Of a DNA stretch of 64,000 nucleotides, positions 6,231 to 53,583 are shown piece by piece. This DNA comes from Sipunculus nudus (lineage: Eukaryota; Annelida; Sipuncula; Golfingiida; Sipunculidae): NCBI GenBank assembly GCA_026874595.1, contig CM049312.1, forward strand, positions 30,445,456 through 30,509,455, read 5' to 3'. Both the position numbers and the translations under genes were made by a program. Each line of letters starts with the position of its first letter. Position 1 is the stretch's first letter. The notes beneath the pieces are model-generated. The model had not been told where the DNA came from. It made no database searches and saw only the letters and a program-made list of their open reading frames with translations.

Positions 6231-6281
<51 letters not shown>

Positions 6282-6312: not shown

Positions 6313-7156
6313 ATATAAAATTATATATATTTAAACACCTAGTTAACCTTATTCATCATAGCAAAGACAGAATTTAAAGATTTTTACCCAGCAAAAAATT
6401 CATACCAGGATGGCGAGACTGAGCCCGTTTATACTTTCCAAAAACCTTAAGAATGGCACATCTCTTACTGAATAATTTATAAAATGAGTTTGGAGAATAA
6501 TTATACAAATCAACAGAACACGTGCTGAGGTTCCAATCATTTTTGCACAAAGTGATTGAAAATAAGCACGATTACCATTTTGACATTTAGAATTTCATGG
6601 AAATATTAAACTTGCTTTTGCTTTCGTTAATAATCTACAATATATCGTCCAATGGGGAGCGGAATTCAAGTGAATTTCTTTCCCTGATGGTTTTACTTTT
6701 CATTTCCCGCCCGAGTTCTGTTTTTTTCTTTCGTTGATAAAGGTTACTAGTGGCACATTGTACTAAATAAGCCAATTTGGCCAAATGAGCTCGATAATAT
6801 TTGTCGAGACCTTGGCTAAAATGTACTAGCGTCTAACACACCGTAGTGCCACTATCAAATCTTGTTACATTTGAAAAAAAAAAAAACAAATGAAGTAACT
6901 ACTGACATCGGTATTCAGTTCAGTCGTAATTTTGTGAGAACTGTTTCCTGCCAGATTCGTCAGCGTTAGTCTAGACGGTTTCCTTCACAACATTGTTTAC
7001 TGTAGACTTAAAATGCAGTGCACCTGCAACATAATTTTCTCAATTTTTTGTTGTCTCTGGAGAGTCCACTGTAGTGTTTATGCATTGAACGACAGTCCTT
7101 TTAAAATTATAAGGTGATAGGCCAAGAACGTTCAGGCTGTGTGATGAAAGAAGGAG

Positions 7157-7164
7157 TATATAAG
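7157..7164 (+). promoter_or_regulatory. TATA-like element, copy A
   Basis: TATATAAG lies in the block GGAGTATATAAGCT followed by ACGCGAGAG. The same block stands at 52060-52067 in copy B, about 1.5 kb before the galactosyltransferase start codon. It could be a core promoter for that gene's upstream exon or for an old LTR. Preservation in both copies is all that supports it. Confidence 0.3.
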
Positions 7165-7486
7165 CTTAAGACGCGAGAGTAAGTGCACAATCTCCAAGGT
7201 TAGCGCTAGATGAACTTTCTGTCTAGTGTACATTCAGAATAACTCAGGTCTCTGTTCATTTTTGTATTTATATAGACTCTATGGATTTTTGTACCATGTG
7301 CGTGGAACGCCTCCCCTGATTACTGTTAGGTATTTTTTTATACTTTATCATCTGTTGCGTTTATGTGAGTGTTTCAGCCGGTTTGGTCTGGTCCTCTCTT
7401 TAAAAGAACTTGTAAGTCCATCCATTTTGGGATGTGGTAATCGCAGACATGGAAATTTATTAGAAAATTGTTATAGATCCCGAAAC

Positions 7487-7501
7487 AATGAAACGATGAC
7501 A
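7487..7501 (+). repeat. 15-bp target-site duplication, left end of the 30 kb nested insertion
   Basis: AATGAAACGATGACA here is repeated exactly at 37568-37582, directly after an A-rich LINE tail. Copy B has the uninterrupted equivalent at about 52863-52882. This marks a LINE-type target-primed insertion into copy A after the duplication. Confidence 0.85.
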
Positions 7502-7807
7502 ATGAAACGTTCCGGTTTAACATGGCTGACTGTAGCCTACTTTGTAAGCCTCCCAGTCCCAGCGAGGCTTACGAGCACTCTATATAAAAAGTTGGTGTGC
7601 GAGCGAGGACACTATTTTTCACATGAATCATACAATAAGCTTACAACAAACAAACGCGGGTCCTTACCTGCGCATGCAAACCCTCCCAAATGATTTAAAA
7701 CAAGAAAATGTACTGGCAGCCACAGAGTCCGCTTGAGGCCATGTCAGGCACTAGATGGCGCTGTGTTGGGGAGCGGTCAGTAAATATTTTTGTTATGACT
7801 TGCACTC
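7502..7807 (+). other. 5' end of outer LINE and/or left flank of the helicase-bearing element
   Basis: This stretch lies between the target duplication and the helicase start codon. It has a perfect 9-bp inverted repeat (7544-7552 / 7564-7572, GTAAGCCTC and its complement) followed by a TATA-like TATATAAAAAG at 7581. The boundary between LINE 5' leader and DNA element must lie in or near this stretch, but I could not place it: no convincing terminal inverted repeat pairs it with 21390-21866. Confidence 0.35.
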
Positions 7808-8029
7808 ATGATGGATGTGCCAGGGCTGTTCGAACTGGTAGTGAAGGAGTATAATATACCCTTCACTTGCATGAAATCTGAACAGTGCAAGGTTGTTGAA
7901 CATGTGTTAAAAAAAGATAATGTTTTAGCTGTTCTGCCAACAGGTTTTGGGAAAAGTGCATGTTTGTATTTGCCACCTCTGCTTCTAGATCAGATGAGTT
8001 TAACATTTTCCTTTAAATGTAATATATGA

Positions 8030-9448
8030 ATATAAATAATTATATTAATATTATTAATAATAGTTATATTTTATTTATATCATACAAATGTATTGTAGGA
8101 ATTAATTTTTAGCAGTTACAAAAAAGACATATGATGAAAGAAGACTAATGATATTTATTGTTTGTTATGATGTTATATTCATGTAATATCATTTGAAAAT
8201 GATAATAAATTCATATAGGATGGTTAAATGTAGAAAAAAATGAGTTCCTGATATGAAATTGTGTAAAGTACACAACACACAATAAATAATAAAGCACCTG
8301 CTAATCTGGTTGAACAGTGTTAAGATTGTAAGTTAAATTCTTGCAATAGCACTTGGAACAGACAACATACCTACAAAATACCTGGAGTGGGTCAGTAAGG
8401 GTCTGAAACGTATGCCTAAACAAGCATTTAACACTGGAATAGCTGACCCTCTCATATAAAGGAATGTAAAAAATATTGTAATTTTAAAAGATCACTTAAG
8501 AAAAACCTCTTTACTAACATAAAAACATTAGAAATGAATGATTTACTGTTTAATAGTCAGTATGAAATTGTTACTTTATTCATTCATAGGAAAAATATAA
8601 TGCATGGGGTGTTTGTATGAGTCTGAACTAATCTAATCAATGTATCTAGTCAAAGGGTTAAAGTATAGAGCTACCATGTAAAGAAATTTTATGTATCACT
8701 GTTTGATATATGCACATATTGCTGTGATATAGATAGAGTATAAATAAAATATATATATTCTTATAAATGTATTTGAAAATCATTACCATAATTGTTAGGT
8801 CTTTTTTACTGCTACTGTGATGTTCATAAGGGATTGATTAAGTTATACTAAAGTATTAATATTTTATAGATGTAATGATATCCATATACCTTTAATAGCT
8901 GTGATAATATATTGACTGCCCAATATCTTGATCCCATACATAAGACCACTAAGGAAATAAGTTAATAAGTAAGCTTCTGTGTGCTATCCAAGGTGAATAT
9001 AGGAATGCATTTATGATATTACACACATGTAAACTGGTTTACCAATATAAAATTAAAAAATGAGTAATGGAAATATAAAATATGAAATAAATAAATATAC
9101 ACTCAGAAAATGCAAGTTGTTGTGGACTTAATAATAATGGCTAATATTTTGGTTAACACACTAAATACAAAAAAAAATAAGAATCCAATATGTTATGATA
9201 ACATGAAGCAAGGTAGTCTAACTGCCACTTTTCAGAAATAAACTGAAGACATATATTTACAGAGAACCTTTCATAAGGACAGAGTGCTAATTGACTGTTA
9301 TATACTTATTACAATAATTATTACTGTTATATCTTGTGTTCCTTTTTTTTTGGTACGTTGAAATATCCTATGTGAAATTTATGGTAGGTTATTTGTATTT
9401 AAAACCATCTGAGTATTACATAAAGTGCCTTATTGAATAAATAAATAG
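8030..9448 (+). other. Intron 1 of the helicase gene, no features
   Basis: AT-rich, without credible coding sequence or recognised mobile element. It ends in TCTTGTGCAG at 9520. The expected GT donor at its start is mutated (see the helicase entry). Confidence 0.55.
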
Positions 9449-10261
9449 ATGGTCTATAATAATTGTAATCATATAAAAAAAAAAACTCATACCAGTATTT
9501 ATCTGTCATGTCTTGTGCAGGCTGATCCTGAGTTTGCACCACACATTGTAATTGTGGTCAGTCCATTGCGATTGTTAATGTATGATCAGGCTGAACGCTG
9601 TCAACAAATGGGGATCAAAGCAGTTATGATTACAAGCAGACACGAAATGTCAGCACAGGAAATACAAGGTATGTAGTATGCTTTTGATATTTTTATTTTG
9701 CACTGGCAAATCAAACAGGTTGTGAACAAGTTGGTATAAAGGAGGTATAACTGAAAAAATGCCTATTACACTACTGAGTGTGGCATGTGATATTGCTCAT
9801 GCAATGCTTCAGATGAAAAGATAATTACTGCATGGTCTTGGGTAAGTGATGATAGCCTGATATAGGGTCTGAATAGCACAATGATGATTACTCTTCAATC
9901 TGTCAAGTTCAATTTGTAATAAAGTATGTTGTTGGGGGAGGGGGTTATCTGCATTGGTTGTGTAAGAGATGAGAGTAAATAATAGTGAAAGATTAATGTC
10001 ATATTGGCTGAGTCAGAATGGAACAATGATAGTTTGAAAATCTCATATATGAACAATATTAGAATATTACAGATGTCAAAGATGGCAATGCCCAAGTGAT
10101 ATAAACATCCCCCGAGGCTCTACAGGTTGGTGACTGGCTGAAATACATAAGGCGTAGCAGTCAAAGAGTTTGTCTAGTGGCATATGATGAGATACACTGT
10201 TTATCTGAATGGTAAGAACAATGAAATATAATCCATTTAATTTATTAAATAAAAAAATGTG

Positions 10262-10265
<4 letters not shown>

Positions 10266-10311
<46 letters not shown>
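10266..10311. repeat. (AT)n microsatellite
   Basis: Pure AT dinucleotide run in the third intron of the helicase gene. Confidence 0.95.
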
Positions 10312-10312
<1 letters not shown>

Positions 10313-11787
10313 GGTTTCAGAGGGGCCAAATCACCTATAAAGCATATTTAATTAACAAAAATGTTGCTTCCCTGTAAAATAAGTTAGTACCTGGCAAAAT
10401 GATTGCCTTGAAACCTTTTTTTGATGCCTGTAAGGAGTGTTAAGAACAGTGGATATGGCGCGATCACATATCAACAAAAACACAACGCATTTGCATTGTG
10501 GAGCCAGAACACATGTCGGTCAGGAGATGCTGTGACTGACTTGGCATGAAAAATGTAATACAAATTCCTGCTGGTTGACACACTGTTGTGGCTCACCAAC
10601 ATGAGTCTGCTAAACAGAGACATGGACTGTGTTCACCAATACACAGAGCTATAACAAAGTGTGAAACAGGTGTATGTCAGGTACTATGACTGTGTACTGG
10701 TATAGTTTGCAATGAAACATTTGTATACAGGAAAACTGAACTGATAGTGTAAATGAATCTGCATAACTTTGCACTGGATGATCCCGTAAGGATAGATGTA
10801 CAAAATAGTATGATGTTCTCAGGAAATAGTAAACATATAGAAGTGTGAAGGAGGGATAGATTCCAGATGAGAAGGTAAAATAGAATAAAGCTGATGACAT
10901 CATCATAATGTTACTATAATTTCAGGGGTGCAGATTTTCGACCAGACTACATAAAATCAGTGGAGCTAAGGAGTATCTTCACTGGTGTACCATGTTTGGG
11001 CCTATCAGCAACGGTAACTGAAAAAGTACTGACAGATGTAATGAACCATCTGCAGCTGAAGGATCACCAGGTAACAATTATATCTGTCCCACCAGATCGA
11101 CCAAATATATTCTTACAAGTTGTGCGCAAAACCTCCTATGATTATGAAGAGGATCTCAAATGGTTAGTTGATGAGCTAAATGAGCAGCAGGAGAAATATA
11201 AGAAAACATTAATTTTTGCCCAAACAGTGAGCCAAGTGTCGGATATATATGAGTACATAAAATCCACGTTGTGCAAGAAGGCATATGCTAAACAGGAATG
11301 TATTCCTGGACAGAGACTGGTCTCTATGTACCATGGACACATTGCCAATACCTTAAAAACCTTCACACTGGATGTTTTTCGTAAGAAGGAATCGAAACTG
11401 CGAGTACTGATATGTACAATTGCCTTTGGGATGGGAGTTGAAATCCCCGACATACGACAAGTTATACACTGGGGAAAGAGCAAATCTATTCTGTCTCACT
11501 GGCAGGAATTAGGAAGATGTGGGCGGGATGGGGAAGCAGCAACAGCAATTTGGTACCCAAAAACCACTGCAGGTGAAGATAAGGAATTGTTTGACAAATT
11601 AAAGAAAGATGAGGATATATGTATAAGGAAATGCATTATTGAATCCTTCATACTTCCAAACATGGACTTGTCTCCTATTGCAGTTATGGATTCTAGAATA
11701 CCCTGCTGTGATGATTGTCAACAGTGCGACTGTAATTTGTGTATTTGCTGTAGTAACTGCAGACAAAAATGTCCATGTAACACATAA

Positions 11788-12926
11788 TTGAAAATGCAAA
11801 CAGTTGTTTGTGTGCTAAAGTATTATATGTACTCGTGTGTTATTATGGAAAGTCTGAGGACATCAATGCACATTTACTTGGACACTGAAAACTATTGCAC
11901 AGTTGATATATTAAAGGATGAGGTTTATGTGTACTAGTGTAGATTAATATTGCATTTATATATCAGAATAATTGTGAACTGATGGATAAAAGTGCTCAGG
12001 GACTGTTGAAGGACTCTGATTAACAAGGAAAAATAACACCATTTGGAATTTTACCAACAATATATTTATGCAGATGTACAAATATAGAAAACAATATAAA
12101 ATGTCAATAAATGTTTGCATGTTGATCACCCATGTTGAGTAGTCAGAACTGAATTCATGTAACTAGTGTACTGAGTGAGACCAATGTAATTATGTACATA
12201 CAGCAATGATGACGTGCTACCTGACACACTGACAACACAACCTCCTGTCTTTAAATATACATGCATGTTTCAGTCTTACTGCTGTTCATTAATTGTGTCA
12301 TAATCTGTTAATATGCATCCAGCAGGGATGTCTGTCAGATGAAGGACATACACAATCAATCTAAATACATCTACAAAGACATTATGCTATCAATCAGGCC
12401 ACTGAAAGTGTGCTAGGTTTCCATGACGACAGACATGTTGACAATATGTCCTTCCAGAGGTTACTCAATAAATAAGAATATGTAGGTGGCATCATCTGTC
12501 CTGCATATTAGCTGAAGTTCATGAAGACCCATATGGAGTTTCAGCACACCAAATTAAATGAATATCCATCTAGTCAATTTTGAGGAATCTAATAATATGG
12601 GTGTCAATTGCTATATATCTTGGGTGCTGAAACATCCCCCTCAACTTAAAGAATATAGCTGACATTTAACTAATATAAGGTTTCAAAGGACATTTTTAAT
12701 GGACCTCTATGGTTTCACAGTTACAAGTTGCTATGTCCCGTGGTTACGATTTGTGTCATGTTAACAGACAGACCGATGACAGACAAAGTGTGATCAGTAT
12801 AGCTGATATGATTATCAGTCAGGCAAGCTAAAAATAGTAGAAAAAATCATCAGTAACTATATGATTCACCTGGACCCAAGTCACACAAGGGTTAGCAAAA
12901 TGTATGCTTGGATAAAGGATAGCTAT
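11788..12926. other. Intergenic space between convergent helicase and DUF6589-like genes
   Basis: No reading frame of note. It holds an AATAAA on the plus strand near 12105 (ATGTCAATAAATG), suitable as the helicase poly(A) signal. The DUF6589-like stop codon ends it at 12927. It presumably comprises the two 3' untranslated regions. Confidence 0.5.
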
Positions 12927-13966
12927 TTATAACTGAACCATTCTCCTCCTGTCAAGTTTTCTGCTATACTTGAGTAGTCTTGAATGTAGCTTGTCAGGCT
13001 TGGCTATTGCCATATCACACCTGAAACCTGGGAAGGAATCATGTTGCCTTCCCGGAGAGATGTCAAATAACTTATCAGCTTTGTATTCCTCCGCGAATGA
13101 GTTAATGTCCTTTTCATAATTAGCTCGTTTTCTGTAACTCTTGGCTATGGCAACACCAGCAACCTCTTCCCCAAAGATATTGTCAATGGCTTCTCCTAGC
13201 GCTCCCACAATCCTCCCTGCTCTCTGAACAGTCTCATCTGTATATTGGCCATGAGCATGTTTCAAGGTCTCTGAAATGAAGTAAATACTGTTCTGTAATC
13301 AGTGATACCTATGACTAAAAATAATTGGGGGTCAGTATGATTGGTATGTAAAATACAAGCACATCTAATTTACTTGATCAAAAATAGGTATGCAAAAGTA
13401 AATAGTCTGTGTATGTAAATATCAGATATGTAGATCTGTATGATCTATTCTGTCAAAATGTATCTTTGAGGTGCAGCTATAATTTTATGGCAATATGAGA
13501 TTGGATGTCAATATGCAACAGAAAATGGGTGGCATATACATAAATGTGACTTATTAGATTAATAAATATTTGAAGAAACCAATATTTATTGAAAATTAAA
13601 TAATATGTCAGCATCAGTAATGTAATGTAAACAAGCAGTTAATAATAATATCATGGCTGTACAGTAAAAGAAAACATAAGGGGTCATATGAAGACTGACT
13701 TTATGAGCAGACCATAACTGTATACCATTCATTGTTAAGACACACATGGTAAATGACATGGCACTGAAACAATGACTTACAAATTGCATTCATGTACAGT
13801 TACATTGCAGATGTGAGGAGAAAAGCAGATGTTGTGTGAAAAGAATAGGTATCCTCAACAATTGGTAACTCAAAACATGCAGCATGCTAACACTTATTTA
13901 TAACTGACTGAAATGCATGGATGGTAAAAAGGGAAGCCTAAGAACTAAGTGTAATATAATGATATA

Positions 13967-13973
<7 letters not shown>

Positions 13974-14059
<86 letters not shown>
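13974..14059. repeat. Compound (AT)n(AG)n microsatellite
   Basis: About 48 bases of TA followed by about 36 bases of GA, within the last intron of the DUF6589-like gene. Confidence 0.97.
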
Positions 14060-14061
<2 letters not shown>

Positions 14062-17000
14062 ATTAGACATTGTTGCAGGGATTCATGTATCACACAGTAA
14101 AAGAAATGTGAACCGACACCTTGACAGCAAAGCCTCAGTTAATACAGATATGATAGCACAGGCTGTCATTCCCAATACCATGCCTGTCAATCTACACGCT
14201 ACATCTTCATGCTACAGTTCTGGTTAATGAAATATTATGTTACCTTTTAATAAACCACTGCAACATGAAAAATGTTGTTCGGTGATGTACATACATAAAG
14301 AAGTCATTAATGATATATGAAGTTATCTGTCTTATCATCATTTTCATATGTCAACATTATATATAATGACTGATAAATATATATACATGTGTGATCTCTG
14401 CAGTATAGAATGCAGATACATTTTCCATGGTTCAGTTCTTCCTGTCATACAGGTTTACACTCATATATTGTTATATATCCTTGATCATTTCCAAGATACA
14501 TATTCAACTAGCTATTAAATATTAAATATTTCTCCTAGACCAAATACTATTTAAATTGTCATTTTATATATCCATTATGGATTACAACGAAAACATGAGA
14601 TGAACATGTTAGGTGTTTGATATGTTATACAAGTTATCAATGGTATCTGAAATGCCACATCACACATATTAGAATAATATTAAATGCATGATATATAATT
14701 GTAAATATATGTACCTTTAAATTCTGCATTTAGGAATTCACACACTCTGTCCATGGCAATGTTTTTCCCCTTTCCTCCCTTAAGGTTCACGGTCCTGTTG
14801 TGTATGATTTCCTCAATCAGCCGAGGGGGCAACCATCCTGACACCTCTGAAATATGTAACATAAACACAATCAGACAATAAATATATTGCGGACCTATCT
14901 AAACTAACGGTAATCTTCTGGACCTTTCATTACAACAGGCCAGTATATGTGGATATCACCACACACAGGCTGCTTGTTTTGTTTCTATCAACTTGTTTCA
15001 TGATAATATGTGGGGGCCAGCCAATACAATAAATAAAAATCAACAAGGGCATTTGGCAGTCAGTCAGTTGAGCCAGAGCTTTCCAATGGCATTCTGCAAC
15101 AAGTGACCTTACTACCTCCCAATATATTCACCCTACCACATTAGATTACATGTTTCACCCATATATCAACATTGCTGTTTTTACAGACATGTTGTTGATA
15201 AACAAATCCATACATCCTTTATGAAGGCATATCAGTACTTTCACAATCAATATTACCATTATATCATTAATATATACACAGAGAATGCCAGATATCCCAA
15301 GACAATCACATTTTCAAAGATAGGTGAATGGCCACCTTTAACTCACAATCGCCTTTATGACTCTGAGGCCTGTGCTATACCCATTGTTCACAGTTGCAGG
15401 TATCATCAAAAATATTATTGTATGAATAGGTTATAAACAGTTTAACAAACCTGATAATAGATGATGTGCAATGATCAGATACTTATAATGATTGCCACGC
15501 CAGAATCGTGGCACATTTATCTTCCACATAGAGATCATGGCAAGTCCATCTCCTTCCCGAATGGTGTCTCGATGACTGAGATCAAGCAATCCAAACCAGG
15601 TCACTGCTAAGGCATAGTTCCTCACATGGTCCAACTGTTAACCAGCAGATTCTGCACATTGCCTTGAACAATACCAGCTTTCATCTGAAATAGTCAAATC
15701 ATGATATGTGGAACCAGGCTCCATGGGGGCAATCACTGTAGGAGCATCTGACCATCGGCTCTTCTTTGTCTGTCAATTGACCAACACAATGTGTACAGTA
15801 ACTGCACGTTCTATTATTATGAACAGTAAACTAAACTTAATGTACATTTGCATGTGATTATAAGGTTTCCTGAAGTGTTTACTGAGCATATGTGATCACT
15901 GAAATTAATGCAATGACACTCTATCAGTACCAGGGTGAATATGAGCGATATTGTGCATGTTTACCATTTTTTTTATTTATGTTAATGTTTTGGGATATCC
16001 TGTATTACAGTTATTGCTCATATTGTCATCTATGACAGTAAAACGCTGCCTTCACCACAGAAGCTCCAGTCAGATGCATGATCATCTTCTTCTGCCTCAA
16101 GGACAGCCTGTATATCAGACTGTGGTGTCAACAGCCACACCTCACTCCCTATTCTTCGGCATATGCCACTGAGGAAATCTTTTCTGTCTTCTGCTGAGGC
16201 ATCTGGCATGGCACCATCTGGTACATCTGCGATGCTTTCCATTCCACACACTTTCATAGCCAAATATACAATATGAGCTTCTGTAATGAAACGGATGAAA
16301 TTGTCAACATAATTGAAGCAGTTCATCACATCCTTCGTCACATTTCGATGTTGGAACGAATTCTTCAACTGAGCCAAAGTCCCTCTTTCAGCAATGCTCT
16401 TTCCACTGAAGAGAATATTCATTGTTTCCTACAATTGAACAGAATTATCATATACTGACCCAAGGTGTTGACAAAAGGCAGGTATTAACACTTTTTTTCT
16501 ATTTCACTACCTTCAGGGAGCATTCATGTCAATTGTTTGGGGAAGGGGGGGGGGGAGTACTTGCAATTTGCTGGACTACTTCCTTGTCCCCCCACCCTTG
16601 CATTGGATGTGATCAGTTTCCTGCTCTCTTTGCCATACCCTTCAACTGCATTCAAGTGATGAGATTCTACATGAATAAATGGAATAGTGGGTTCATTCCA
16701 TATTGGAAGTAGCAGTCCACCTTTTCTGTGTATTTATGTTCTATCTCAAAATGCATGACCCAGCAAGGCTATTCATACAACTCTCTACATAACAGCTGTA
16801 GGGTTACATAACAGATTCGTATCCAAGATGTCCCTCTTTTTAATACCCCAGCATTAATAACTAATGGTTTCATAGTGAATCAATCAGTATCAATTAGCAG
16901 AACAGTTTAATGCTATTACTTGATGTTGAACATGTCAATGCACAACCTTAGTTTCACATTTACGAGATATTCATACCTGAAGCATGATGCCTCTGTGATG

Positions 17001-17311
17001 AAATTCCTGCGGTACAGGGTGAAGTCCTTCAAGGCGCTCACTCTCTGTCAGGTCAGCTGCCCTGGCCTTCCTCGCATCCCGCATTCTTTCTACTGACAGT
17101 GCATCACCATAAGTTGGTACTACCCGATACGACCCATCATTCCTTCTTGGTACATATCTTTGCAGTCCTTCTATAATGTTGATGACCCCTTCTGTTGAGG
17201 ATGGGTTGGCATCTATGATACCTATATTTATCTGCAAAAAAAGGTTCATATGTGTTCATTATGTGCTCTTCCGGTTGTGAGTTATTCTATACAGCTCATA
17301 CAGTGACATTT

Positions 17312-17314
<3 letters not shown>

Positions 17315-17348
<34 letters not shown>
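17315..17348. repeat. (AT)n microsatellite
   Basis: Pure AT run in the intron after exon 6 of the DUF6589-like gene. Confidence 0.95.
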
Positions 17349-17351
<3 letters not shown>

Positions 17352-19200
17352 TGCAAAGTTTATTTAATGATCTCACCATTTCAATCCTTTGGGATGCTTG
17401 TTCTTCATACATATGAGGAATATGCCATTGAACAATGTCTTGATATTGTTTGAAGTAGGGCATATTCTTCACAGGGATTCTTGACACAATAGTTTCCATT
17501 CTGGAACGAAGCATGTCTTCATCCTCCAGGTTTTGGAAGTATGCATGCAGAGGAATTTCTGATGCATTCAACTGTACATTCCGCTCCTCAAGATCCTCCA
17601 CATTGACCCTGTTCTTGGCAGCATAGCAATTTGCCCAGAGCTTCATCTCATTTTTTTTTGCCCTCTGCACTGATCTCTGGCCTGAATCATGATATGAGCA
17701 TTGTCCCAGACTAATGCATAGCCAGAACCTAGAGAACAATTTAAATAAATGATTTAGTATCATGTATTGCATCTACTCTATATACACTGTTCAATATACT
17801 AGGTGCTTAGGTGCACAGATGCACCATAAAACAGTTTTATGCATCCGCTGTATCACTGCAAGGTCCACAGAGTGCACCTGAGGCTTGTAACTAGGACAGA
17901 TCTGCAGGACTGTTAGGCACATGTCCAGATGATCAAACAATGACATATGAACACTGAAACATGATGTCACAATACACACTACTTATATACAGAATCAGTG
18001 ATCAGAGCTTTTGTTTAAATGGATATTATTCAAGGTCAAATTCCGATCAGGTTGAAACCCATAGCTTATTTTTTTACTGCACTGTAATATGTGTATAATT
18101 TATAATATAGCTGTAATAAAAATAAGTGTAATGACAATGTCTTAGTGCACCTTGAAATTACTTGTGCACAAAGTTGTATCAGGTGTGGTGCACAGCTGCA
18201 CCTTGCCATGAAAAAGTATTTTGTACTCAGATATAGATATATATCTTTCTTCTTGTTGTAAATTCTAAATGTTCAATTTGGCATAATATTTACCACACAT
18301 AATTTCCTGTTACATTATATCATTGTCATTTATTGGTTGGATTGCAGGAAATATGCAGACAACTTCTGAATTAGTCATACCTCTCCCACTTAAGGTTATG
18401 TCTTCTTCATACCACGTCGATTCCTCTGACTGCTCAATTCTGCATGAATCATCTACCGACTCATTTGTGGTGCTTGTTTCCTCCTGAAGTGGTATGTATT
18501 CCTCATCAGAGTCCTCCTCATCACTTAGGTCCTCCCATCCATCATCATCTGCATTGGATGTTGAAGGGTAGGATGTAGCAGTTGATGAAGCTGATGTTGC
18601 TGTTGTGGTTGTTGTGGTGTGCACCTCTGTGGAGCCAACTGACACAGATCCAGTAGTGTTGAAGTATGCTTCCTGTCAAATAACCAAAAACATGTGATTG
18701 TCATTATTTATAATCCCAATTATTATTGTTTTTTTATTTAAAACAATTTATTGTTATATTATACCATTCAATATCAACTTGGTTTTCATGATGTGTCATG
18801 ACATGGGTTATTCATGTTTACACAGGCCATATGTTGAACAGCCTGTTTTATCAGGATGATATTCTGAATTATCATACATTAAAAAATACATACTAGTGCC
18901 TGTTTCCACAGGTTCAACTTGTCATCTGGTTCCTGGCAGAACTTGTTGAGCCATCTTCTTGTTGACCATGAACTTTGGCAGATGCCAAGGTGATTGAAAC
19001 ACCTGATTAACTGTAGGCAAATAATTAAATATCACTTATTGTACATGAATAAATGCAACAGCCAATACCTAAAAAATAACAAGGGCCCATGGGTCACGCC
19101 ACTCAGCTGATTTTGACAGTTATGACTGCATCACCATAGATTTTTTAAAGTTGTAATTAAAATACTATCTTAAATGATCAGGAACTAGAGCTGAATGACT

Positions 19201-19220
19201 GGGGGGGGGGGGGGGGGGGG
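19201..19220 (+). repeat. 20-base poly-G run
   Basis: Twenty consecutive G in an intron of the DUF6589-like gene. Similar runs occur at about 44829, 49810 and 59870. On either strand such a run can form a G-quadruplex. Confidence 0.9.
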
Positions 19221-20739
19221 TTAAAACACCTATGGATATGAATACAGCATTGGGAATTATATTCAATAAGATTTAATAAAAATTGGAGGTTTTTCTTATT
19301 TTATCAAAGGAATGAAGTCGCAAAGACCCTGTTTTTAGCTAGGTGAGGGATCTTTGGGACATCTCACATTATGCAGATTTTTGGATTCCTAGGTCTTCAG
19401 ATATTAAAACTTGCCACATCTACGGGCGGCCCGACGACAGCCAATGGACCTCTCCTTTAGCTCAGATGACTTATAGTCAGCTGAGCTCATAATTGCTAAT
19501 TAAATGTGTTGATGTTCTGTACAATTATGTGCCTCACCTTCTCACTGCTTCCACAACGCCACATCTGCACACCATTCAGTGCCTGCAGGAAGCTGAACTT
19601 CTTGGCGTTGATTGTGTAAAGTGGCACAGAGAGCATGTAGCCGAGTCTTGGGAGGATGAACGACCTGATAAATATACAATGAATTATTATACGAGGAATG
19701 TGGTATTTTTTTCTATTATTACTTATTTTATATCAAATAAATATTAAAATATTCATATTAAGTATTACCTGTACTTTTCTTCATCCACGATGGGCATGGC
19801 TGCCTCAATGGCACCGACTAATGTTTTCACCTGACCTCTCATGTCACCCACCAGTTTAGTCCAGCTGAATTTACGTATAGAATCAGTCCCATCTATCTGC
19901 GGGTATGAGTTTTCCCTGACATATCCTCGCATTTCTTTTTTAATCCTGACAGACACTATTTTCATAAAGGCTTTCTCGCAGCTGGGCCACGGTTCAAGAT
20001 ATACCGTATTGCTGTATAGTATTTTGAGTTCTTCACTGCTTTGCTTATGTCATTAGCAGTCTGTACCCTTGTGATGTGGCGAGGAGGTGTGTGTGCACAA
20101 TGATAACTCTTGCGTGGTGAACTAGAACCAAGTGGTACCCACTCACTCTCTCCTTCTCCTGTTTTCTGTTTTTTTGTACAGCTGGATGATCTACCAGGGC
20201 TTTCTCTTTTCTTCTGCGGGGATCCTCTGTGACGTGGAGCAGGCATGCATTCAAATGTCTTGTAGCTTCTTTCTAGTTTGTTGAAGCATGTCCCACACAC
20301 ATGACCATCACTTGGACCCTACATGAAGAATAAGAAGTATATGCATCATTGTGTAGCATGTTTTACAGTATGGTTCTCTGTTTAATTTAGGGGAAATATA
20401 TGTCTTCACATTGCAGTTGTCAATATTTATTTGTCTTGATATCTCAATTATGATTAAACCTTCCATTTTTTTCAACCAACTGGTCATGATGTCTATGCAG
20501 GATTTCAATTGCATTTGTGCAGAAACGAATATTACATGTAATATTATTTTTACAGTTGACGGTGATGAGATTATGTTATTTCTTTTATTATTTTGTTAAG
20601 TATTTTACTTTGACATTATTATCTTTCAAGGTATGGGGCCTTTCTGTATATTAAAGGATAATATATTTGTACAGGTAATCTCATGCATTTGATTAAGAAT
20701 ATTTCAGAGCAGTTGTGTCAGACATACGGATTAGGGCCA

Positions 20740-21175
20740 CAGTAAGGCTTCGTCTAGACTAGCGTTAGATCGGCCCTCTGAGATTATAGCCAGATCACTG
20801 GCCTGCCAGTGTGCCTGGACATGTAACTCTGAGGATTGCATTCAAAGCCGTATGAGGATGCAATTAATTTCGTCATTTTTGACAACGCCTCATTGCTAAC
20901 ATGTATCTTGTCACTTCAAATAAACCCACTAGACCTTTTTAACAAGTTACATATCTCTCCAACTACCGGTACACCTAGACATGCCTGTGACATATTCCGT
21001 AATAACCGAATATATTTGTATATTGTTCTCCATGTATGGGAGATTTCTGCCTGCAGTCTGTCTGCTGACTGTATGCGCAGATACGGTTATGAAGCGTGGC
21101 CTTGACTTGCAGGGCGGTTCTCAGTTTGGGCCCTAACTGAGTCGTGTTTGTCACGGCTACGTCTAGACGGTCTAC
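20740..21175. mobile_element. Possible MITE-like insertion in intron 1 of the DUF6589-like gene
   Basis: The segment is less AT-rich than its surroundings. Both ends carry GGCTNCGTCTAGAC (left 20748, right about 21146), whose CGTCTAGACG-like core is palindromic, so the ends match in either orientation. Near the right end is the near-perfect palindrome CTCAGTTTGGGCCCTAACTGAG. I could not define a target duplication. Confidence 0.3.
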
Positions 21176-21399
21176 CCTGTAGGCTGTATATATTCATTTC
21201 GTTTCAATATATGACATTAAACTGACAGTAAATAAAACTTACCTGGTACATATACACTGCTTGCAAGGCAGAATACACAGACACTGGCAAGCATCTGAGC
21301 TTCCCTTGTATATTCCGCTTGTCCAGTCCTCTGCCATGTTTTTTCTGGCGGAGCTGATGTCCACACAGCCTGCAGCTATCTTCAGCCATGTTCAGTCAA

Positions 21400-21865
21400 T
21401 CAGTGGCGGGAAGTGTGAACGAGGCCAGTAACTGGGATGAGGCTCACTTCGTAGGGTGTTTCCTCCAATAACATGAGGGGATTCCCAAGAACTTACCAGC
21501 CAATCAGAAGATGGGATTTGCAATACTGACTGCTCCCTTGTGTCCTTGACCCTAACGAACATGGCGGTTCTGGCCAGGAGTCGCGGCTTGTCACTTCGTG
21601 ACTTTTCACAAGGATCATGATGGACCATTGTCTTACTTCAAGAAAGAAACTAGTAAGGTGCCTTAGTTATGTGTTTATTAACTATGTCATGTTTGTTTAT
21701 GTTGTCATAGACAGGACATTTTATATTTCTGCCAGGGCACCGACAAATAACACTGTGTGCTGTCCGTCTCTATATTAGTATTATATAGAGCGGATACTCT
21801 GTCTAGGCTGACTGAGGCAGCACGCGAGCCGAGCTCTCCACATCAAAGGTATTTTTAAGCGTGAT
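21400..21865. promoter_or_regulatory. Leader between the DUF6589-like start and LINE ORF1
   Basis: This is the divergent interval: upstream region of the minus-strand DUF6589-like gene and, on the plus strand, the 5' leader of LINE ORF1. It is relatively GC-rich and includes AACATGGCGG at 21559-21568, similar to the YY1-type motif found in some promoters. The right edge of the DNA element must lie here, but its terminus is not identifiable by eye. Confidence 0.35.
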
Positions 21866-22798
21866 ATGGCAGAAATTTCTACAATAAAGACACGCTCAAA
21901 AAGTAAAACAAACCGTGTTAACAAGGAAACAACAGAAACACCAGAAATGGATAAATACTTAGAGCAAACACAGAAAAGAAAAGGCAAGAAAGACGAGCAG
22001 GAGACCGAGTCACCAGAGGTCAGTGACCCCATTATGTCGACCATTGAAATCAAATGCACCCAACTGGAACAGTACTTGAAGACAGCGTTAGAGGAATTTA
22101 AAGAGTCACTGAAAGGGGACATACAAAAGATCAAACAAGACGTACAAGAGGTCCACAAAAAACATTCATGTCTTGAACAGAAAATAGATGACGTTACACA
22201 CAGTGTAGAATATTCCCAGGCCGAAATAGAGACATTGAAAACTAAATTGGCAAGCGCAGAAACTAGAAATGAAACACTGCATGCCGAGCTAGACACACTA
22301 AAGACGGAGAAAAGAGACACAGAAGACGAACTCATGAAAATAAAAACAAAACTCGCAGAAACAGAACGCCACAGCAGAGAATATAACCTAAGACTGTTGG
22401 GAGTTGTAGAAGAGAAAGATGAAAATTGTGAGCAAATTGTAGCCAAGGCGATCCGAGAGCAAGGGCTACTCGGGGAAAAACCAATAGAGGACATATTACA
22501 AACCATTGAGGTGGCGCACAGAACAGGAATGAAAAAACATGGAGTCAACAGGCACATAATTGTTAAATTTCTAAAACGGCCGGTGAGAAACAGTCTATTG
22601 AAAGCCCAAAAGCGCACAAGGAGAGCGATCGGGGAAAGCTTCTTTGTTGAGGACCTCACCAAAGAAGATTATCTTTTTAAAAAGAAAGCCGGCCCCCAGA
22701 TGAAAGTGGCCCATAGAGATCACCAGAAGGTCCGAGGACGCCTAATAATAAACGGCAAACAAGTGCCTATTGACAACTCCAGTCCGCAAGCCGATTGA
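21866..22798 (+). CDS. L1-type LINE ORF1 protein (RNA-binding, coiled coil)
   Basis: A 310-residue intact frame. Roughly the first 60 residues are Lys/Arg/Glu-rich. Residues ~60-165 form a long heptad-rich, coiled-coil stretch. Then comes the ORF1p-type core starting REYNLRLLGVVEE, with EVAHRTG and HIIVKFLKRPVRNSLL, and a C-terminal part with GPQMKVAHRDHQKVRG. In L1 elements such proteins trimerise through the coiled coil, bind the element RNA and accompany ORF2p. It is the only long undamaged frame in the nested insertion. The start ATG follows TGAT and no longer frame extends upstream. It belongs to the plus-strand LINE whose ORF2 starts at 27313; the two are unusually far apart. Confidence 0.85.
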   Translation: MAEISTIKTRSKSKTNRVNKETTETPEMDKYLEQTQKRKGKKDEQETESPEVSDPIMSTIEIKCTQLEQYLKTALEEFKESLKGDIQKIKQDVQEVHKKHSCLEQKIDDVTHSVEYSQAEIETLKTKLASAETRNETLHAELDTLKTEKRDTEDELMKIKTKLAETERHSREYNLRLLGVVEEKDENCEQIVAKAIREQGLLGEKPIEDILQTIEVAHRTGMKKHGVNRHIIVKFLKRPVRNSLLKAQKRTRRAIGESFFVEDLTKEDYLFKKKAGPQMKVAHRDHQKVRGRLIINGKQVPIDNSSPQAD

Positions 22799-27312: not shown

Positions 27313-30300
27313 ATGTCTAATACTAGTCAGATAGTATCATTGAATGCCAGAGGACTGGCCAGTTATTCTAAAAGAAAGGAAGTTTTTCATTGGTTAAACA
27401 AGAAAGAATGTCATATTGTATTTTTACAAGAGACTCATAGTACTTCAAAATGTGAAAATAAATGGAAATCAGAATGGGGACATCAGATATATTTTAGCCA
27501 GGGCACTAACCAAGCAAGAGGGGTATGTACATTAATTAAAAACAAAACTGCCTTAGGATAAAAGCTGTAAGACGGGATAATCATGGGAGATATTTAATTA
27601 TTAATACAATAATAGGTCAACATGAGATCTCCTTTGTTAACATATATGCACCAAATAAGGATGAACCCTGCTTCTTTGAGGAACTTATTAATGTTATCAG
27701 CACCAATTGTACAGGCAATTTAATAATAGGTGGAGATTTTAATTTAACTCTTAATCCAAAATTGGATAAAAAGGGCGGGCATTCTTAAATTCACATGAAA
27801 TCTAGAGAAGTGATAAGTCATTGGATAGAATTAGAACAGTTATCGGATATCTGGAGATTACAACATCCCAACCATTTAGAATATACGTGGCATAGATATC
27901 TTCCTAATCCAGTATTTTGCAGACTTGACTTCTTTCTAATTAATGATAGCCCAATAAGTTGTAAAAACCAATCTGATATTGAAGCTGGGTATAAAAGTGA
28001 CCACTCTTTAACTAAAATAAATATGGCAATAACAGAACATAAGAATGGACCAGGTTTCTGGAAATTGAATTGTTCATTATTAAAGGATCAAAGTTATATC
28101 TCCAAAATAAAAGAGTGTATAAAAGATACTATTAACAATAATAAAGGAACAAATCCATCATTAATGTGGGATACTTTAAAATGTCAGATAAGAGGAGAAA
28201 CAATAGCATATGTAGCCTACAAGAAAAAAGTAAAAAAACAACATTCAGAATGGTTAATACATCAACTACAGACGATATATAACACAACAGGTGATACTTA
28301 AGATAAAGAAAATTGGAAAGTAGCAGTTAATAATCATAAAGAGTTTGTTGAAGAGAAAACAAGAGGAGCAATTATAAGATGTAGAACCACCTGGTTTTCA
28401 GAGGGGGACAAACCGACTAAATATTTTCTTAACATAGAAAAAAGAAACTTTAATCGAAAATCCATAATAAAACTCAAAGATAAACGAGGTAGAATAATAA
28501 TAGAACCCAAAGAGATATTAAATGAGGAACTACAATTTTATACAAATTTATATACAGCACAAGCCAAGTCTGATAATGTTAATAGAGATTTCTTTTTACT
28601 AGAAAATAATAAAATGCTCAATGAAGAGGAAAGGACTTTGTGTGAAGAAGAATTTAAAATTGAAGAATTTAAAAACACTGTTGATTCAATGGCCCTTAAT
28701 AAGACTCCAGGCCCAGATGGGTTCCCAGTAGAATTTTATAAACGTTTTGGTCTGATTTAATAGAATATTTAATAAATGCTATAAGTCACTCATATAATAA
28801 AGACTGCCTTCCACTCACTATGCGTCAAGGGATAATATGTCTCATTCCTAAGAGAGGGAAGGACCAACTACTCTTGAAAAACTGGCGCCCCCTTTCTCTT
28901 CTTAATACCGATTATAAAATATTAGCAAAAACTTTAGCCAATAAACTTAAATTAGTCTTACCTTCAATAATATATTCAGATCAAACTGGTTTAATCAAAA
29001 ATCGATATATCGGAGAAAATATAATAAAAATTATAAGCATTATCTCTCATTTAAAAAATAAAATGATAGGAGGTTACCTGTTATCAGTTGATTTTGAAAA
29101 AGCATTTGATCAGTTAGAATGGCCTTGTATTCAAGATGTACTTCAAGCATTTACCTTTGGACCAATCCTTCGAAATTGGATTAAGATATTATATCATAAT
29201 ATTTTTAGCTGTGTTCTGAACAGAGGATGGGCCACTGATTCCTTCTCAGTAACAAGAGGTGTTAGACAGGGATGTCCCCTATCACCATACTTATTCATAT
29301 TGGCAGCAGAAATACTAGCAAATGAAATAAGGAATAACTGTAAAATAAAAGGAGTAATAGTTGATCAGAAGTATGCAGATGACACTGTTTTAACTCTTAC
29401 AGGAGGACCAATGTCAATCAAAGAAGTCTTGGACGTATTTAAAAGGTTTCAACAAATATCAGGTCTTAAAGTTAACATAGAAAAAACAGCAATAATGCTC
29501 AAACAAACAAGTTTTATAATCAGGCACAATTGAAAGACTTAGGTCTGTGTTGGTGTACTAATCCAGTTAAAATTTTAGGAATCTCAAATCATCCGGAATG
29601 GAAAAAAATGATAGAAACTAACTATAAAGAAATCCTTAGTAAAATTAAAACTATTATAAATATCTGGAGACACTGAATTATGTCCTTGTCTGGAAGGATA
29701 ACCATTGTGAAAACATGTATTATTTCACAACTCATATATTTATTCCTTGTACTTCCTAAGCCATCACAAACTTATATTAAAGAAGTGGAAAGATTAATAT
29801 TTAAATTTATATGGAATAACCATCCAGACAAGGTTAAGGGAAACACTTTAATAGCACCGAGAGATAAAGGAGGGTTAAATATGATTAATCTCCAAGCTAA
29901 GTTACAATCTTTAAAAATCTCATGGGTAAACGTTTTCTTAGCAGCTCCACTTAAAATGGTTGGAGACAGATTATTAATGTACAATTAAAAAATCTAGGTA
30001 CATATATATTTAAATGTAACTTGAGAGTGAACGACTTAAAAGATTTGAGTGTCACTTGTGATCCATTCTGGAAAGAAGTACTCCAATCCTGGTACAAATG
30101 CAATTACACTAAGATGGTTTCTATAAATGAAATTCAGTCACAAACTTTGTAGTTTAACTCTCACATAAAAATAAATAACACAGTAATATTTTATAATAAA
30201 TTATATAAGGCAGGGGTCAAAACAGTTTCAGACATTACTAAAAATGTGGGAAACAATGTAACATTTCTGACCTTTAAAGAATTAATAAGCAGGTACAAAG
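27313..30300 (+). pseudogene. LINE ORF2 (endonuclease + reverse transcriptase), outer element, 5' part
   Basis: The first 82 codons (27313-27561) are the start of an APE-type endonuclease: SLNARGLASYSKRKEVF, then FLQETHST. After a frameshift near 27560 the endonuclease continues (FVNIYAPNKDEP, then IGGDFNLTLNP) to about 27788, and a second shift leads into 27795-28301. The reverse transcriptase lies mainly in 28820-29533: LNTDYKILAKTLANKLK, SVDFEKAFDQLEW, GVRQGCPLSPYLF and KYADDTVL (YADD present). A further frame runs 29680-29988. The protein is cut at 30300 by the minus-strand LINE and resumes at 36595. In L1-type elements ORF2p nicks target DNA and copies the element RNA in place. Several frameshifts make this copy inactive. 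Confidence 0.9.
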
Positions 30301-30677: not shown

Positions 30678-33600
30678 TTATATTTGATATATATATCTCA
30701 ATGTCAAATTGTATAAACAATAATATTTTTTAAGACACAAGTGAGCTCCACTTCTTATAATGTACAGATAAAGTTCCATTTCTGTGGGCAATGTTTCTTT
30801 CAATGGTGTATATCTGTTCCATATATAGTTTAAATTGATAAACGTTGGCATAATATTTTTGCATTTACACACATATATATATATATATCTTTTAGCTTGT
30901 AATATAAGTATATCTAACAGAGAATCATTTGTGTTGTTGAAGATAATAGTTGTTTTGCTAAAGCAGTTTTCTGTAAGAAGTATCTTTTGGCTAATCAGCC
31001 AGTTTTTTATTTGAGTAAAAATGTTTTGTGTTTCGTTACAGCTATAAAATAGATGCATAATAGTTTCTTTCTCTTTTTTACAAAGTGAACAAAGTTCACT
31101 GGTTGCTTTCCCTATAGTAAATAACAGAGGGTTTAGAGCTATGGTTCTATGAATTAGTTTAAACTGAAATATTCTTAATATTTCTGATATTGTTATGCTT
31201 TTTATATTGTTTAAGGCTTCATATATCAGGTCTCTGCAATCGCATTGCATGTCTCTATTCCATTTATCAATTACTTTGGAGGGTTCTGTGCAGACGTTCA
31301 TTATTAAATCTTTGTAAACTTTTTGTGAGATTTTCTTAGTATTCATTATAGTTTCTATATTCGGTTTACATGGATTGTTAATGTGTATATCACTATCTGA
31401 GCATGATTTTATTATTTTTTTCCAACATGCTGGAATAGCATCAATTAAACTCATATACTGCATTTGCCCTATTTTTAATTTATATCTACTAATGAGTTCT
31501 GCATGTAATAGAAAAGTATATTATTTGTTTTTATTTTTTAGGATATCATATACTTTTGTGACACCTGCATTGCACATTTCTTTGATATATACAGTTTTAT
31601 GATCAACTTTGATGTGCGAGTTATAAAATAATTCCTGATTAAAGATTTCCTCTGGAGAGTACACATTTTTAAAGTTATATTTACACCATGCATCAAAAAC
31701 TTCTCTCCAGAATGGGCTATATAGATGATCATTAAGATTTTTTATGTCAGATGACCTAAGATTACATTTAAAAAAATAAGAACCCATTCCTTTAAACTGT
31801 ATATCAACTATTTGTCTCCAGCCTCGGTCTAAGGTGCCAGATAAGAAACGTTTCACCCAAGCAATTTTTAATGCATCAATTTTGGATTTTAAATGTATCA
31901 TGTCTAGTCCCCCTTTTTCAATAGGTGCTATGAGTGTGGTTCGTTTAATCTTATCTTGTTTGTCCCATATAAATTTCCAAAGTAAAGATTCAATATCTTT
32001 TACGTAAGTTGGGGATGGATTGGGTAATACCTGTAGTGCACAATTGTGATAATACATGTGCTTTTATAATATTTATTTTTCCTGAAAGCGACATACCTCT
32101 ATTGGACCATATATTTATAATTGTTTTTATTTTACTCAGTATTTCTATATAGTTGATATCTTACATCTTTCTCCAGTCTGGATAAACAGATATACCCAAT
32201 ATTTTTACTGGTTCAGAGCTCCATTTTAAACCTAATCTTTCTATGTTTTCTTTTTCATTAGCAAAAGGTGTCATAGGAATAACTACAGTTTTTTCTACAT
32301 TAACTTTTAATCCCGATATTTTTTTTTAAATTCGTCAAAAGTTCCTAGAAGTTCTTTAAAAGATTTAGTGCCTCCAGTAAGGGTTACTGCTGTTTCATCT
32401 GCATACTGAATTAATTTATGTTCAGTACCTCCTATATTTACATCTTTAATTCTAGGATTATTCCTTATTTTAACAGCTAGTATTTCTGAAGCGAGTATAA
32501 ACAGATATGGTGACAATGGACAGCCTTGCCTAACACCTCGATTTATAGAAAAGTATGAAGTGGCCCATCCCCTATTTATAACACAGCTGTTAATACCTGA
32601 GTAAAGTATATGAATCCATTTTCTAAAATTTGGTCCAAAATTTAACATTTTTAGAGTATTGTGAATATGAGTCCATTCTAAAAAATCAAAAGCTTTTTCA
32701 AAATCTATTGATACCAGGTAACTTTTAACTTTATGTTTATATGAATATGCAAATATATCTGTAATTTTTATGTTTTCTCCAATATACCTATTTTCCATGA
32801 AACCAGTCTGATCAGAATGAATAATAGAGTCTAGGGTTGTCTTAAGTCTATTAGCTAAAGTTTTAGCAATTATTTTATAGTCCGTGTTTAAAAAAGAGAG
32901 ATGACGCAGTTCTTCAAATGAAGAGAATCTTTTCCTTTTTTGGGAATGAGACAGATAATACCTTGTCGCATTGAAAGTGGTCAAAATATTATTGGAAAAT
33001 GAATATTTCAGTGGGTTAATAAAATAATCTTTAATATCATCCCAAAATTTCTGATAAAATTCAGCTGGAAATCCATCAGATCCTGGTGTCTTATTTGTTT
33101 TAAGAGATTTCACAGTTTTATATAGCTCAGATGGAGAAAAATCTGCTTCACAGTTTTGTGCGTCTTCCTCTCTAAGTGTATATAAATCCTCTTTTGTAAT
33201 AAACTGGTTTGTGTAATCCTCTCTGAGTTCATTAGATGTATACAAATTCTTATAAAATGTTAATTGTTCCTGCAAAATTGTTTCTGTGTCAGTAATTATT
33301 TTTCCATTTTTGTCTTTTAATTTCAGGATTGATTTTTGTTCATAGTTTCTTTTTTCCAAATTTAAAAAATACTTTGTAGGTTTATCTCCTTCTGAAAACC
33401 ATCTGGATCTGCATCTGATTACTGCTCCTTTTGTCTCATTTTCAATTAAAAGTTTATGATTGTTCACTACAATCTCCCATTTACATTTATCTTCAAAGTT
33501 CTTAGTTTTATTATATTGACACTGGGCCTTATACATTTCTCTCTCTAATGCTATTATTAGTTTATTAGTGTACCTTCTCTTTTTGTTTGTTGAGAATGCT

Positions 33601-34489
33601 ATGCTTTCACCTCTAATTTGGCACTTGATTGTGTCCCATAAAAGTGAGGAATTAGCTTCTTTATTGTCTTTTACAGTGTTTCTTATACATTCTTTAATCT
33701 GCTTAATATATGTTTCATCTTCAAGTAATGAACAATTAAATTTCCAATATCCCGGACCTCGCGGATGTTCACTCAGCAATTAACTCATTGAAATAAGTGC
33801 ATGATCTGTTTTTTTATCCAGTTTCGATTCTAGTAGTGTCTGCGTACCTGCAAAGACTATCACTGATAAGAAAGTAGTCAAGACGACAAAATATAGGTTG
33901 GGGGTTGTATCTATGCCATGTGTATTTCAGGGTCGCTGGGTGTTGAGCCCTCCAAACATCTGTCAACTGTGACAGTTCCATCCAATGTAAAATAATTTGT
34001 CTAGATTTTTCCTGTATTTATTACCACTTTCTTTGTCTATTTCCGGGTTTAAAGTTACATTGAAATCACCAACAATTATTAATTTATCTACATGTAGATC
34101 TTTTAATATAGATATAAGATTTTAAAAAAATCTGGTTCATCTTTATTTGGAGCATATACATTTACTAGTGTAATGTTATGAATTCCTGCTATAATATTGA
34201 GAATAAGAAATCTACCACATTTATCTCGCTTTATATCTTTAACATGGATTCCTGATTTATTTTTAATAAGTACACTAACTCCCTTTGCTTGATTAGTTCC
34301 ATGACAAAAAAATATTTGGTTCCCCCACTCTGATCTCCATCTCATTTCATTTTCTGTACTACTATGTGTTTCTTGGAGGAGTATGATATCAATTTTTTTC
34401 CTATTCAACCAATAGAATATTTCTCTTCTTTTTGCATGACTACCCATACCTCTTACATTCATTGAAGCTATATTACATATGTCAGTCAC
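30678..34489 (-). pseudogene. LINE ORF2 of the minus-strand element (endonuclease + reverse transcriptase)
   Basis: Frames in order on the minus strand: 34489-34103 (APE endonuclease start, SMNVRGMGSHAKRREIF, then LLQETHSS and NVYAPNKDEP), a broken stretch, 33779-32307 (490 codons, reverse transcriptase), 32057-31521 and 31463-30678 (C-terminal region with LCSLCKKEKETIMHLFYSC, the CCHC-like end). RT motifs: SIDFEKAFDFLEW, GVRQGCPLSPYLF and QYADETAV. The active-site box is YADE where YADD is expected, so a catalytic aspartate is replaced. With the frame breaks this marks an inactive copy. It is close in sequence to the plus-strand ORF2 (27313-37331). Confidence 0.9.
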
Positions 34490-52500: not shown

Positions 52501-53583
52501 TGCGTACCGTGTTTATTGTTTGTAAACTCAAAGATTATATTCCTATGTCACGTGCACGACGATCATGTGACCAGCGGCCTTGGTGTCAGGCGGACTTTCT
52601 GTCCAGTGTGCATTCAGGATTAGTCAGGTCTCTGTTCACCTGTGCATTTATATGGACTCTATGGATTTTTTTTGTATTATGTGCGTGGAACGCCTCCCCA
52701 GATAATTATAAGTTTATTTTTATTATACTTTATCCTCTTTGGGTGTATGTGAGTGTTTCAGCCGATTTGGTCCACCGTTTAAAAGAACTTGGAAAGTTCA
52801 TCCCTTCGGAGGTGAAGCATTCGCAGGGATTGAAAATCTATGAGAAATTTGTTGTAGCCCTTAAAAAAATTAAATGATAGCACTCTGTTTGCGTGATAGG
52901 AAATAATTTCCCCATTCAGTCTCACCGGAAGAGCAAATGTATTGCAACACGTGTAATTGACCCATATTGATTACGCAGAGAGTGTCAGTATGTAAGCCCT
53001 AATCTTGATGACGTGGAGTTATGCAGCCATTTTCTTTTCCGTAACGGCATGTTCGAATGATAATTTTTTACCGGTAGCCATACTGTTAGATTTATGTGAC
53101 AGAGAAGTGGCTGGTTACGAAAATACCTGAATGCACAAGCCGGCATGTGAAAGTACATTTCTCATCAATTTATTCAAATGTTATACGAAACATTCTTACA
53201 AATTATGCATAAAAATAGAGTGACTGTGTATACTTTTGATGAAATCATCTATTGCCAGCCAGGACAGGTGTAACGACTGAGATAGTTACTTTGAAGTTTT
53301 GCGATATGGAATTGCAGCAAGATCAGACACAGATACATAAATACCGGTTTTGACGCTGTCAGCGTCAAAGGGAGTCGGGTTTCAATAGTTGCAGTTTCTG
53401 ATAAGATTTCGCAAGTGATATGGCCCCTGACATGAGCCAGTGAACACAGCCTAGTACATAAATACTTCTTGGTCGTAGAGAACACTTGATATACACGTAT
53501 TGTGGTGACATGCTTTCCGGGGGAGATTGAATCAGTGATATAAAACACCTTTGGATAAGTCACTGTCTCACATTATTGCCAAC
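49511..53583. other. Copy B flank upstream of the galactosyltransferase
   Basis: Aligned with 4850-7501 and 37583-38368 of copy A. No coding sequence that I can support. Contains a T/A-rich microsatellite at 50789-50870 and the TATA-containing block at 52060. A ~460-bp block at about 52110-52600 is present in B and absent in A (A jumps from GCGCTAGATG to ACTTTCTGTC). The region between 52068 and 53583 could include 5' UTR exons of the gene. Confidence 0.45.
52060..52067 (+). promoter_or_regulatory. TATA-like element, copy B
   Basis: TATATAAG within GGAGTATATAAGCTGG followed by ACGCGAGAG. It is retained in both duplicate copies. It could drive a transcript reaching the galactosyltransferase exon 1.5 kb downstream; no transcript data are available. 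Confidence 0.3.

Follow-up and report, generated by a model that had tools for sequence, protein, structure and literature searches.

Two multi-exon genes face each other in the genome of the sipunculan Sipunculus nudus, one related to RecQ helicases and the other containing DUF6589, a domain for which Pfam (PF20231) lists no function, and the locus raises the question of whether the pair forms one mobile unit and, if so, which of its proteins moves it. To answer this, we analysed a 64,000-nt stretch of CM049312.1 (assembly GCA_026874595.1, positions 30,445,456-30,509,455, forward strand), hereafter the window, in whose own numbering positions are given below. We find that window positions 7533-21805 are one DNA transposon inserted in a repeat resembling a long interspersed nuclear element (LINE). 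The insertion is very probably a defective copy of an AcademH-type transposon, and the motifs and gene company of its DUF6589 protein make that protein its probable transposase. AcademH is a known kind of element, to which this analysis adds the assignment of DUF6589, TAG ends that each have a palindrome further in, and a variable order of the two genes.

The gene pair lies within a single inserted element

Aligning further copies, as the original prediction had proposed, defined both ends of the element. A second copy, on C11, gave four aligned blocks, bounded on the outside at exactly 7533 and 21805 of the window, with 93.1% identity over 9,734 aligned columns. These limits enclose 14,273 bp that start with TAG and finish with CTA, and they are flanked on the left (7524-7532, plus strand) and on the right (21806-21814, plus strand) by the same 9 bp, GGCTGACTG. 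Taken alone, this repeat is one among many short repeats that chance would give, and we accept it as a target-site duplication (TSD) because the C11 copy has identical ends. That copy is flanked by ATGTTGAAC/ATGTTGAAT, and a third, on C17 (22070318 to 22085704), by GAAAACTCC/GAAAAATCC, which gives a 9-bp TSD in all three full-length copies examined (0, 1 and 1 mismatches).

The LINE-like repeat has its 5' end at position 7510, and the insertion point lies 23 bp inside it. The repeat's initial 23 bp (7510-7532, plus strand) precede the element, and the rest (21815-22798, plus strand) follows it, including an ORF1-like coiled-coil open reading frame (ORF) at 21812-22798. Repeat copies on C6, C9 and C5 all begin at one common base, equivalent to window position 7510. 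Once the flanks of the element are joined, they align through the junction with the C6 locus at 99% identity, a match that extends to 415 of 423 bases and represents an empty site; the joined flanks also span the junction at the C9 locus (89%) and, partly, at the C5 locus. The ends held exactly in common with a second copy, the 9-bp duplications and the empty site together identify one mobile unit. The original prediction had placed such a unit at 7600-21700, embedded in a LINE: the unit stands, but its true limits reach further on both sides, and the split repeat with its ORF1-like frame agrees with the embedding, but the L1 signal of that frame in Pfam (Transposase_22, E 0.042) is below cutoff.

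Inside each tip lies a palindrome. The left one, GTAAGCCTC...GAGGCTTAC (7544-7572), is visible in the sequence and kept by most aligned short derivatives of the kind described below; the right one (21755-21791) reads CTCTATAT...ATATAGAG in the window and CCGTCTCT...AGAGACGG in most derivatives. Both are retained in most copies, and at the left end of the C17 copy one arm has been lost.

These findings bear directly on the possibility that the locus holds two neighbouring host genes, one of them a cellular RecQ, that came together by chance. The helicase core is indeed near WRN and other cellular RecQ proteins, but this explanation is refuted by the empty site, by the target duplications and by the several copies that end at the same bases; the recurrence of the pair at 25 of 34 loci and the broken state of both window genes, each described below, count against it too, and we give it almost no weight. 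A single-copy locus that lacks termini, with genes that do not co-occur elsewhere, which the original prediction had named as evidence against a transposon, is thus not what the genome holds.

Short derivatives share the ends and the 9-bp duplication

When the element's first 244 bases were used as a genome query, at least 40 matches were obtained (the best 40 of 338 candidates), and the last 246 bases gave at least 26; here and below, all genome-wide counts are lower bounds. Among 13 unique short elements of about 590-620 bp that we examined, nine have TAG/CTA ends together with a 9-bp TSD (seven perfect, two with one mismatch), as against such matches in 39 of 200,880 trials (0.02%) of a control in which both boundaries were slid off the ends. 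The duplicated sequences varied, with no preference for TTAA in the sites seen. One of them, compared closely, is made up of a left piece 80% and a right piece 70% identical to the ends of the window element, with the helicase lost, and we therefore interpret the short elements as deletion derivatives of related elements.

The structure of the insertion sites also separates the element from two other kinds of transposon. Helitrons produce no target duplication, and this class is ruled out by the 9-bp duplications and the empty site. KolobokH, a type of Kolobok transposon, likewise bears a RecQ helicase beside its transposase, which makes it a candidate by gene content; in PMC9587614, however, its helicase lies downstream of the transposase, its duplications are the 4-bp TTAA and it was found in fungi only, whereas the window helicase sits on the opposite strand, convergent with the transposase, and the element has 9-bp duplications with no bias towards TTAA. 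We regard the KolobokH explanation as refuted, with a negligible chance of being correct.

The RecQ-type helicase

Exon models of both genes were placed by hand using splice signals and reading frames, without transcripts. The genes converge, with stops 1,139 bp apart, in line with the 1.1 kb previously predicted. The helicase occupies four exons on the plus strand: exon 1 (7808-7993) carries motif I, exon 2 (9521-9668) follows, exon 3 (10073-10211) contains the DEIH box, and exon 4 (10926-11787) holds motifs III-VI and a Cys-rich tail like the RecQ zinc-binding region, with no winged helix seen. Joined, they give a 444-residue reading that passes the RecQ family cutoff (recQ_fam, NCBI TIGR00614; 229.5 versus 219.8 bits), so that the RecQ-type protein of about 444 residues with a Cys-rich tail that had been foreseen is recovered. 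It matches cellular RecQ proteins in the PDB, with WRN the closest (3e-43). Pfam calls DEAD and Helicase_C on the window helicase, and does not call RecQ zinc-binding or winged-helix domains on it; by eye, the tail has CxxC-type spacing as in the RecQ zinc-binding region, and the helicase of a related locus, L002, scores RecQ_Zn_bind at 1.7e-9.

The DUF6589 protein, a probable transposase

The second gene spans 21389 to 12927 of the minus strand in about twelve exons. Its spliced product matches PF20231 in two parts, covering profile positions 17-232 (E 7e-20) and 259-397 (E 6.8e-13) of 410, both over the cutoff, as the label DUF6589-like in the original prediction had implied. Exon 1 (21243-21389) supplies the leading half of a Cys4-type zinc finger at the N terminus (a weak zf-AD match, below cutoff) and is followed by exon 2 (19769-20318), exon 3 (19538-19664), exon 4 (18894-19010) and exon 5 (18381-18672), the last of which encodes an acidic low-complexity linker. 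Exon 6 (17377-17728) contains VWDN, with the candidate first catalytic D, then a frame break at an A-run, after which DUF6589 begins. Exon 7 (16977-17231) contributes YGDALSVERM, with the candidate second D, and FHHR. The first DUF6589 part ends in exon 8 (16056-16428), whose ORF continues to 16030 and whose donor at 16056 is a predicted one. Next come a zinc-finger exon (15635-15769), PHD-like by eye and broken in frame, and the start of the second DUF6589 part (15451-15634), the two probably forming a single exon. An exon at 14715-14846 bears GKGKNIAMDRVCEFLN, with the candidate catalytic E in DRVCEFLN, and the last exon (12927-13270) includes the stop.

The PHD-like finger, which Pfam does not call, interrupts the DUF6589 match in the gap from profile position 232 to 259. 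AcademH has a zinc finger inserted between catalytic residues, to which the window finger, recognised by eye, may correspond. Equivalents of the VWDN, YGD and DRVCEFLN motifs are visible at L001, L003 and L004 and at L024, one of two loci with an XPG-like ORF described below. Since DUF6589 is kept in every paired family examined, and since two DUF6589 loci carry an XPG-like ORF, the protein is probably the transposase, with a catalytic role predicted from its motifs; the suggestion made in the original prediction is strengthened accordingly, and a protein family that had no assignment becomes a probable transposase family. In a direct search, relatives of a 301-residue DUF6589 piece were found neither in viral contigs nor in bacterial or archaeal contigs. 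Our literature search, which lay outside Repbase and subscription papers, found no biological paper naming DUF6589 or PF20231, and the link between DUF6589 and transposons may be unprinted.

The window copy is damaged in both genes

In the window, helicase exon 3 has an in-frame TAA that is absent from the C11 copy, and exon 1 is followed by a non-GT donor (CAG/ATGAGT, compared with CAG/GCGAGT in C11). Breaks interrupt the transposase frame in exons 2 and 6 and in the region of the zinc-finger exon. Near 19.98 kb, in exon 2, the window has lost one base that C11 keeps, and C11 has a 4-base gap of its own close by. At the exon-6 A-run the two copies break in an identical phase (9 versus 6 A's), and a related family, family B, reads open at this position; because C11 shares the phase and the related family is open there, we attribute the break to an old family lesion, an unseen intron or slippage. 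With both the helicase and the transposase damaged, the window copy is defective and not autonomous.

RecQ and DUF6589 genes are paired across the genome

The original prediction had also suggested searching the assembly for other adjacent pairs. The PF20231 profile yielded at least 26 genome matches, exon 4 of the window helicase at least 64 and the joined window transposase at least 55. From the match lists alone, the DUF6589 matches merge into 23 loci, 12 of which show a helicase match no more than 20 kb away, all of them convergent. Overall, a RecQ gene was found within that distance at 25 of 34 transposase loci, versus 0.05 expected; this total includes four loci (L002, L004, L015 and L022) at which a RecQ tail was recognised within the fetched flank, and as such tails were sought only beside transposase loci, the pairing without them is 21 of 34. 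Across the 25 pairs the genes are convergent in 18, divergent in six and tandem in one, so that the convergent layout first described holds for the window and for most pairs but not for all. At C3:25942370-25945749, transposase exons 44-87% identical to those of the window occur with no helicase match within 20 kb.

Two related families were compared with that of the window. Copies of family B (on C2, C9 and C10) share 95-99% identity across a compared length of 5.1 kb, and their left end starts with TAG and has an inner palindrome. Five further loci (C3:11733009, C13:45780757, C2:81363643, C12:68767722 and C7:10052072) are 98-99% identical to the initial ~1.35 kb of family B alone (L059, ~800-2146) and are perhaps a young non-autonomous derivative.

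Family C comprises five RecQ-bearing copies (L044-L048 and L084; C1:90.71, C5:42.17, C7:60.57, C9:23.02 and C2:86.93 Mb) that are 99.2-99.8% identical over 3.3 kb and start with TAGTCCATACATGGACC at one common base in five different flanks; judged from this sequence identity and the shared start, the family looks recently mobile. Here the helicase and transposase are divergent, with transposase exons found at four of the five copies, and the N-terminal exon has a weak likeness to that of the window (E 0.011). Set beside the window, family C indicates that the gene pair has been kept and its orientation has not. The zinc fingers vary as well, being C2H2 in L006 (E 1.6e-4, just under the Pfam cutoff), C2H2 by eye in L001 and PHD-like in the window family.

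Relationship to Academ transposons

The AcademH lineage of the Academ superfamily was reportedly published by Kojima in 2020 (Mob DNA 11:15). According to PMC10045372, AcademH elements encode a helicase and make 9-10 bp target duplications, AcademX elements encode a nuclease and make duplications of 3-4 bp, and the difference in length is linked to the helicase and the nuclease. For AcademH of fungi, low copy number has been reported. Because it has a helicase and its 9-bp duplication fits the published 9-10 bp, the window element is assigned with considerable confidence to AcademH, as originally proposed, and the same two features rule out membership of AcademX. Precise ends, a target duplication and an empty site are now given for an animal-type helicase transposon.

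AcademX does have a counterpart elsewhere in the genome: at L020 and L024, two of the transposase loci outside the window, a DUF6589-like transposase is followed downstream, on the same strand, by an ORF with XPG-like motifs recognised by eye. The two XPG-like ORFs are related to each other (29%). As a genome query, the ORF at L024:1-1224 gives at least 111 matches, which we read as an abundant AcademX-like group in S. nudus.

Several observations weigh against the reading of an AcademH-type transposon mobilised by a DUF6589 protein. The tips of the element are alike in the outer TAG alone, the rest not being inverted copies, and no long terminal inverted repeat was found between 6900-8000 and 21200-22300. 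Four of the 13 short derivatives (L063, L068, L078 and L080) have no clean 9-bp TSD bounded by TAG/CTA. The candidate catalytic residues were picked by eye, and a PDB sequence search with an intact DUF6589 ORF found no transposase. The XPG-like ORFs matched nothing in Pfam or in the PDB (E up to 10 in each). Nine of the 34 transposase loci have no RecQ match within 20 kb, two of these being L020 and L024. The AcademH assignment is based on the helicase and the TSD length, a comparison with Academ by published description.

This last point, together with the fact that the transposase parts of L020 and L024 barely exceed the DUF6589 cutoff (27.6 and 31.8 versus 27), would suit a rival reading, in which the helicase-bearing DNA transposons make up an unnamed superfamily of their own and their DUF6589 transposase differs from that of Academ. 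The agreement of helicase and 9-bp duplication with the published description of AcademH (PMC10045372) and the two loci that pair DUF6589 with an XPG-like ORF, which is the AcademX combination, make such a superfamily unlikely. The transposase loci without a RecQ match and the loss of the helicase from short derivatives would suit yet another arrangement, an ordinary DUF6589 transposon that captured a RecQ gene idle in transposition; against this, diverged families have the helicase too, in both orientations, as does the young family C (99.2-99.8%), which argues that it has been kept, and we consider an idle passenger less likely still.

A possible transposition mechanism

Returning to the AcademH-type transposon, we see an even chance that a broader proposal holds, in which DUF6589 would be the DDE (Asp-Asp-Glu) transposase of the entire Academ superfamily, and in which transposase and RecQ helicase in the helicase branch would form a two-gene mobility module whose orientation has changed among convergent, divergent and tandem, implying a dedicated helicase transposition factor that helps to set the 9-bp stagger. 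A sequence of steps can be sketched from established knowledge of DDE transposons and the anatomy of the element. The DUF6589 protein would bind the element ends, probably at the palindromes that lie about 12 bases in from the tips, and would cut using an RNase H-like D-D-E centre (VWDN, YGD, DxxxE) split by the zinc finger. The element would then be joined to the target with a 9-bp stagger between its strands, and the duplication would arise as the host repairs the gaps. The RecQ-type 3'-5' helicase, whose gene lies on the other strand, may open the ends or unwind strand-transfer or gap intermediates, and the short derivatives would be mobilised in trans. Family C, with its five young copies, offers a setting in which the need for RecQ in DNA transposition is testable; were the helicase needed, this would be a rare transposon that brings its own RecQ.

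Other repeats in and around the window

A copy of the LINE-like repeat at C5:64315243-64317293 is split by ~1.8 kb shortly after its 5' end. Within the window, the left flank of the element (7000-7476) has ~80% identical relatives at 51903-52125 and 52594-52857, and two more LINE-like remnants with reverse transcriptase occur at 27789-29533 (plus strand; RVT_1, 1.4e-36) and 30678-34501 (minus strand; RVT_1, 1.6e-27). Long runs of AT (and AT/AG) dinucleotides are found at 6234-6280, 10264-10310, 13962-14061 and 17315-17350, three of them within introns or spacers of the element.

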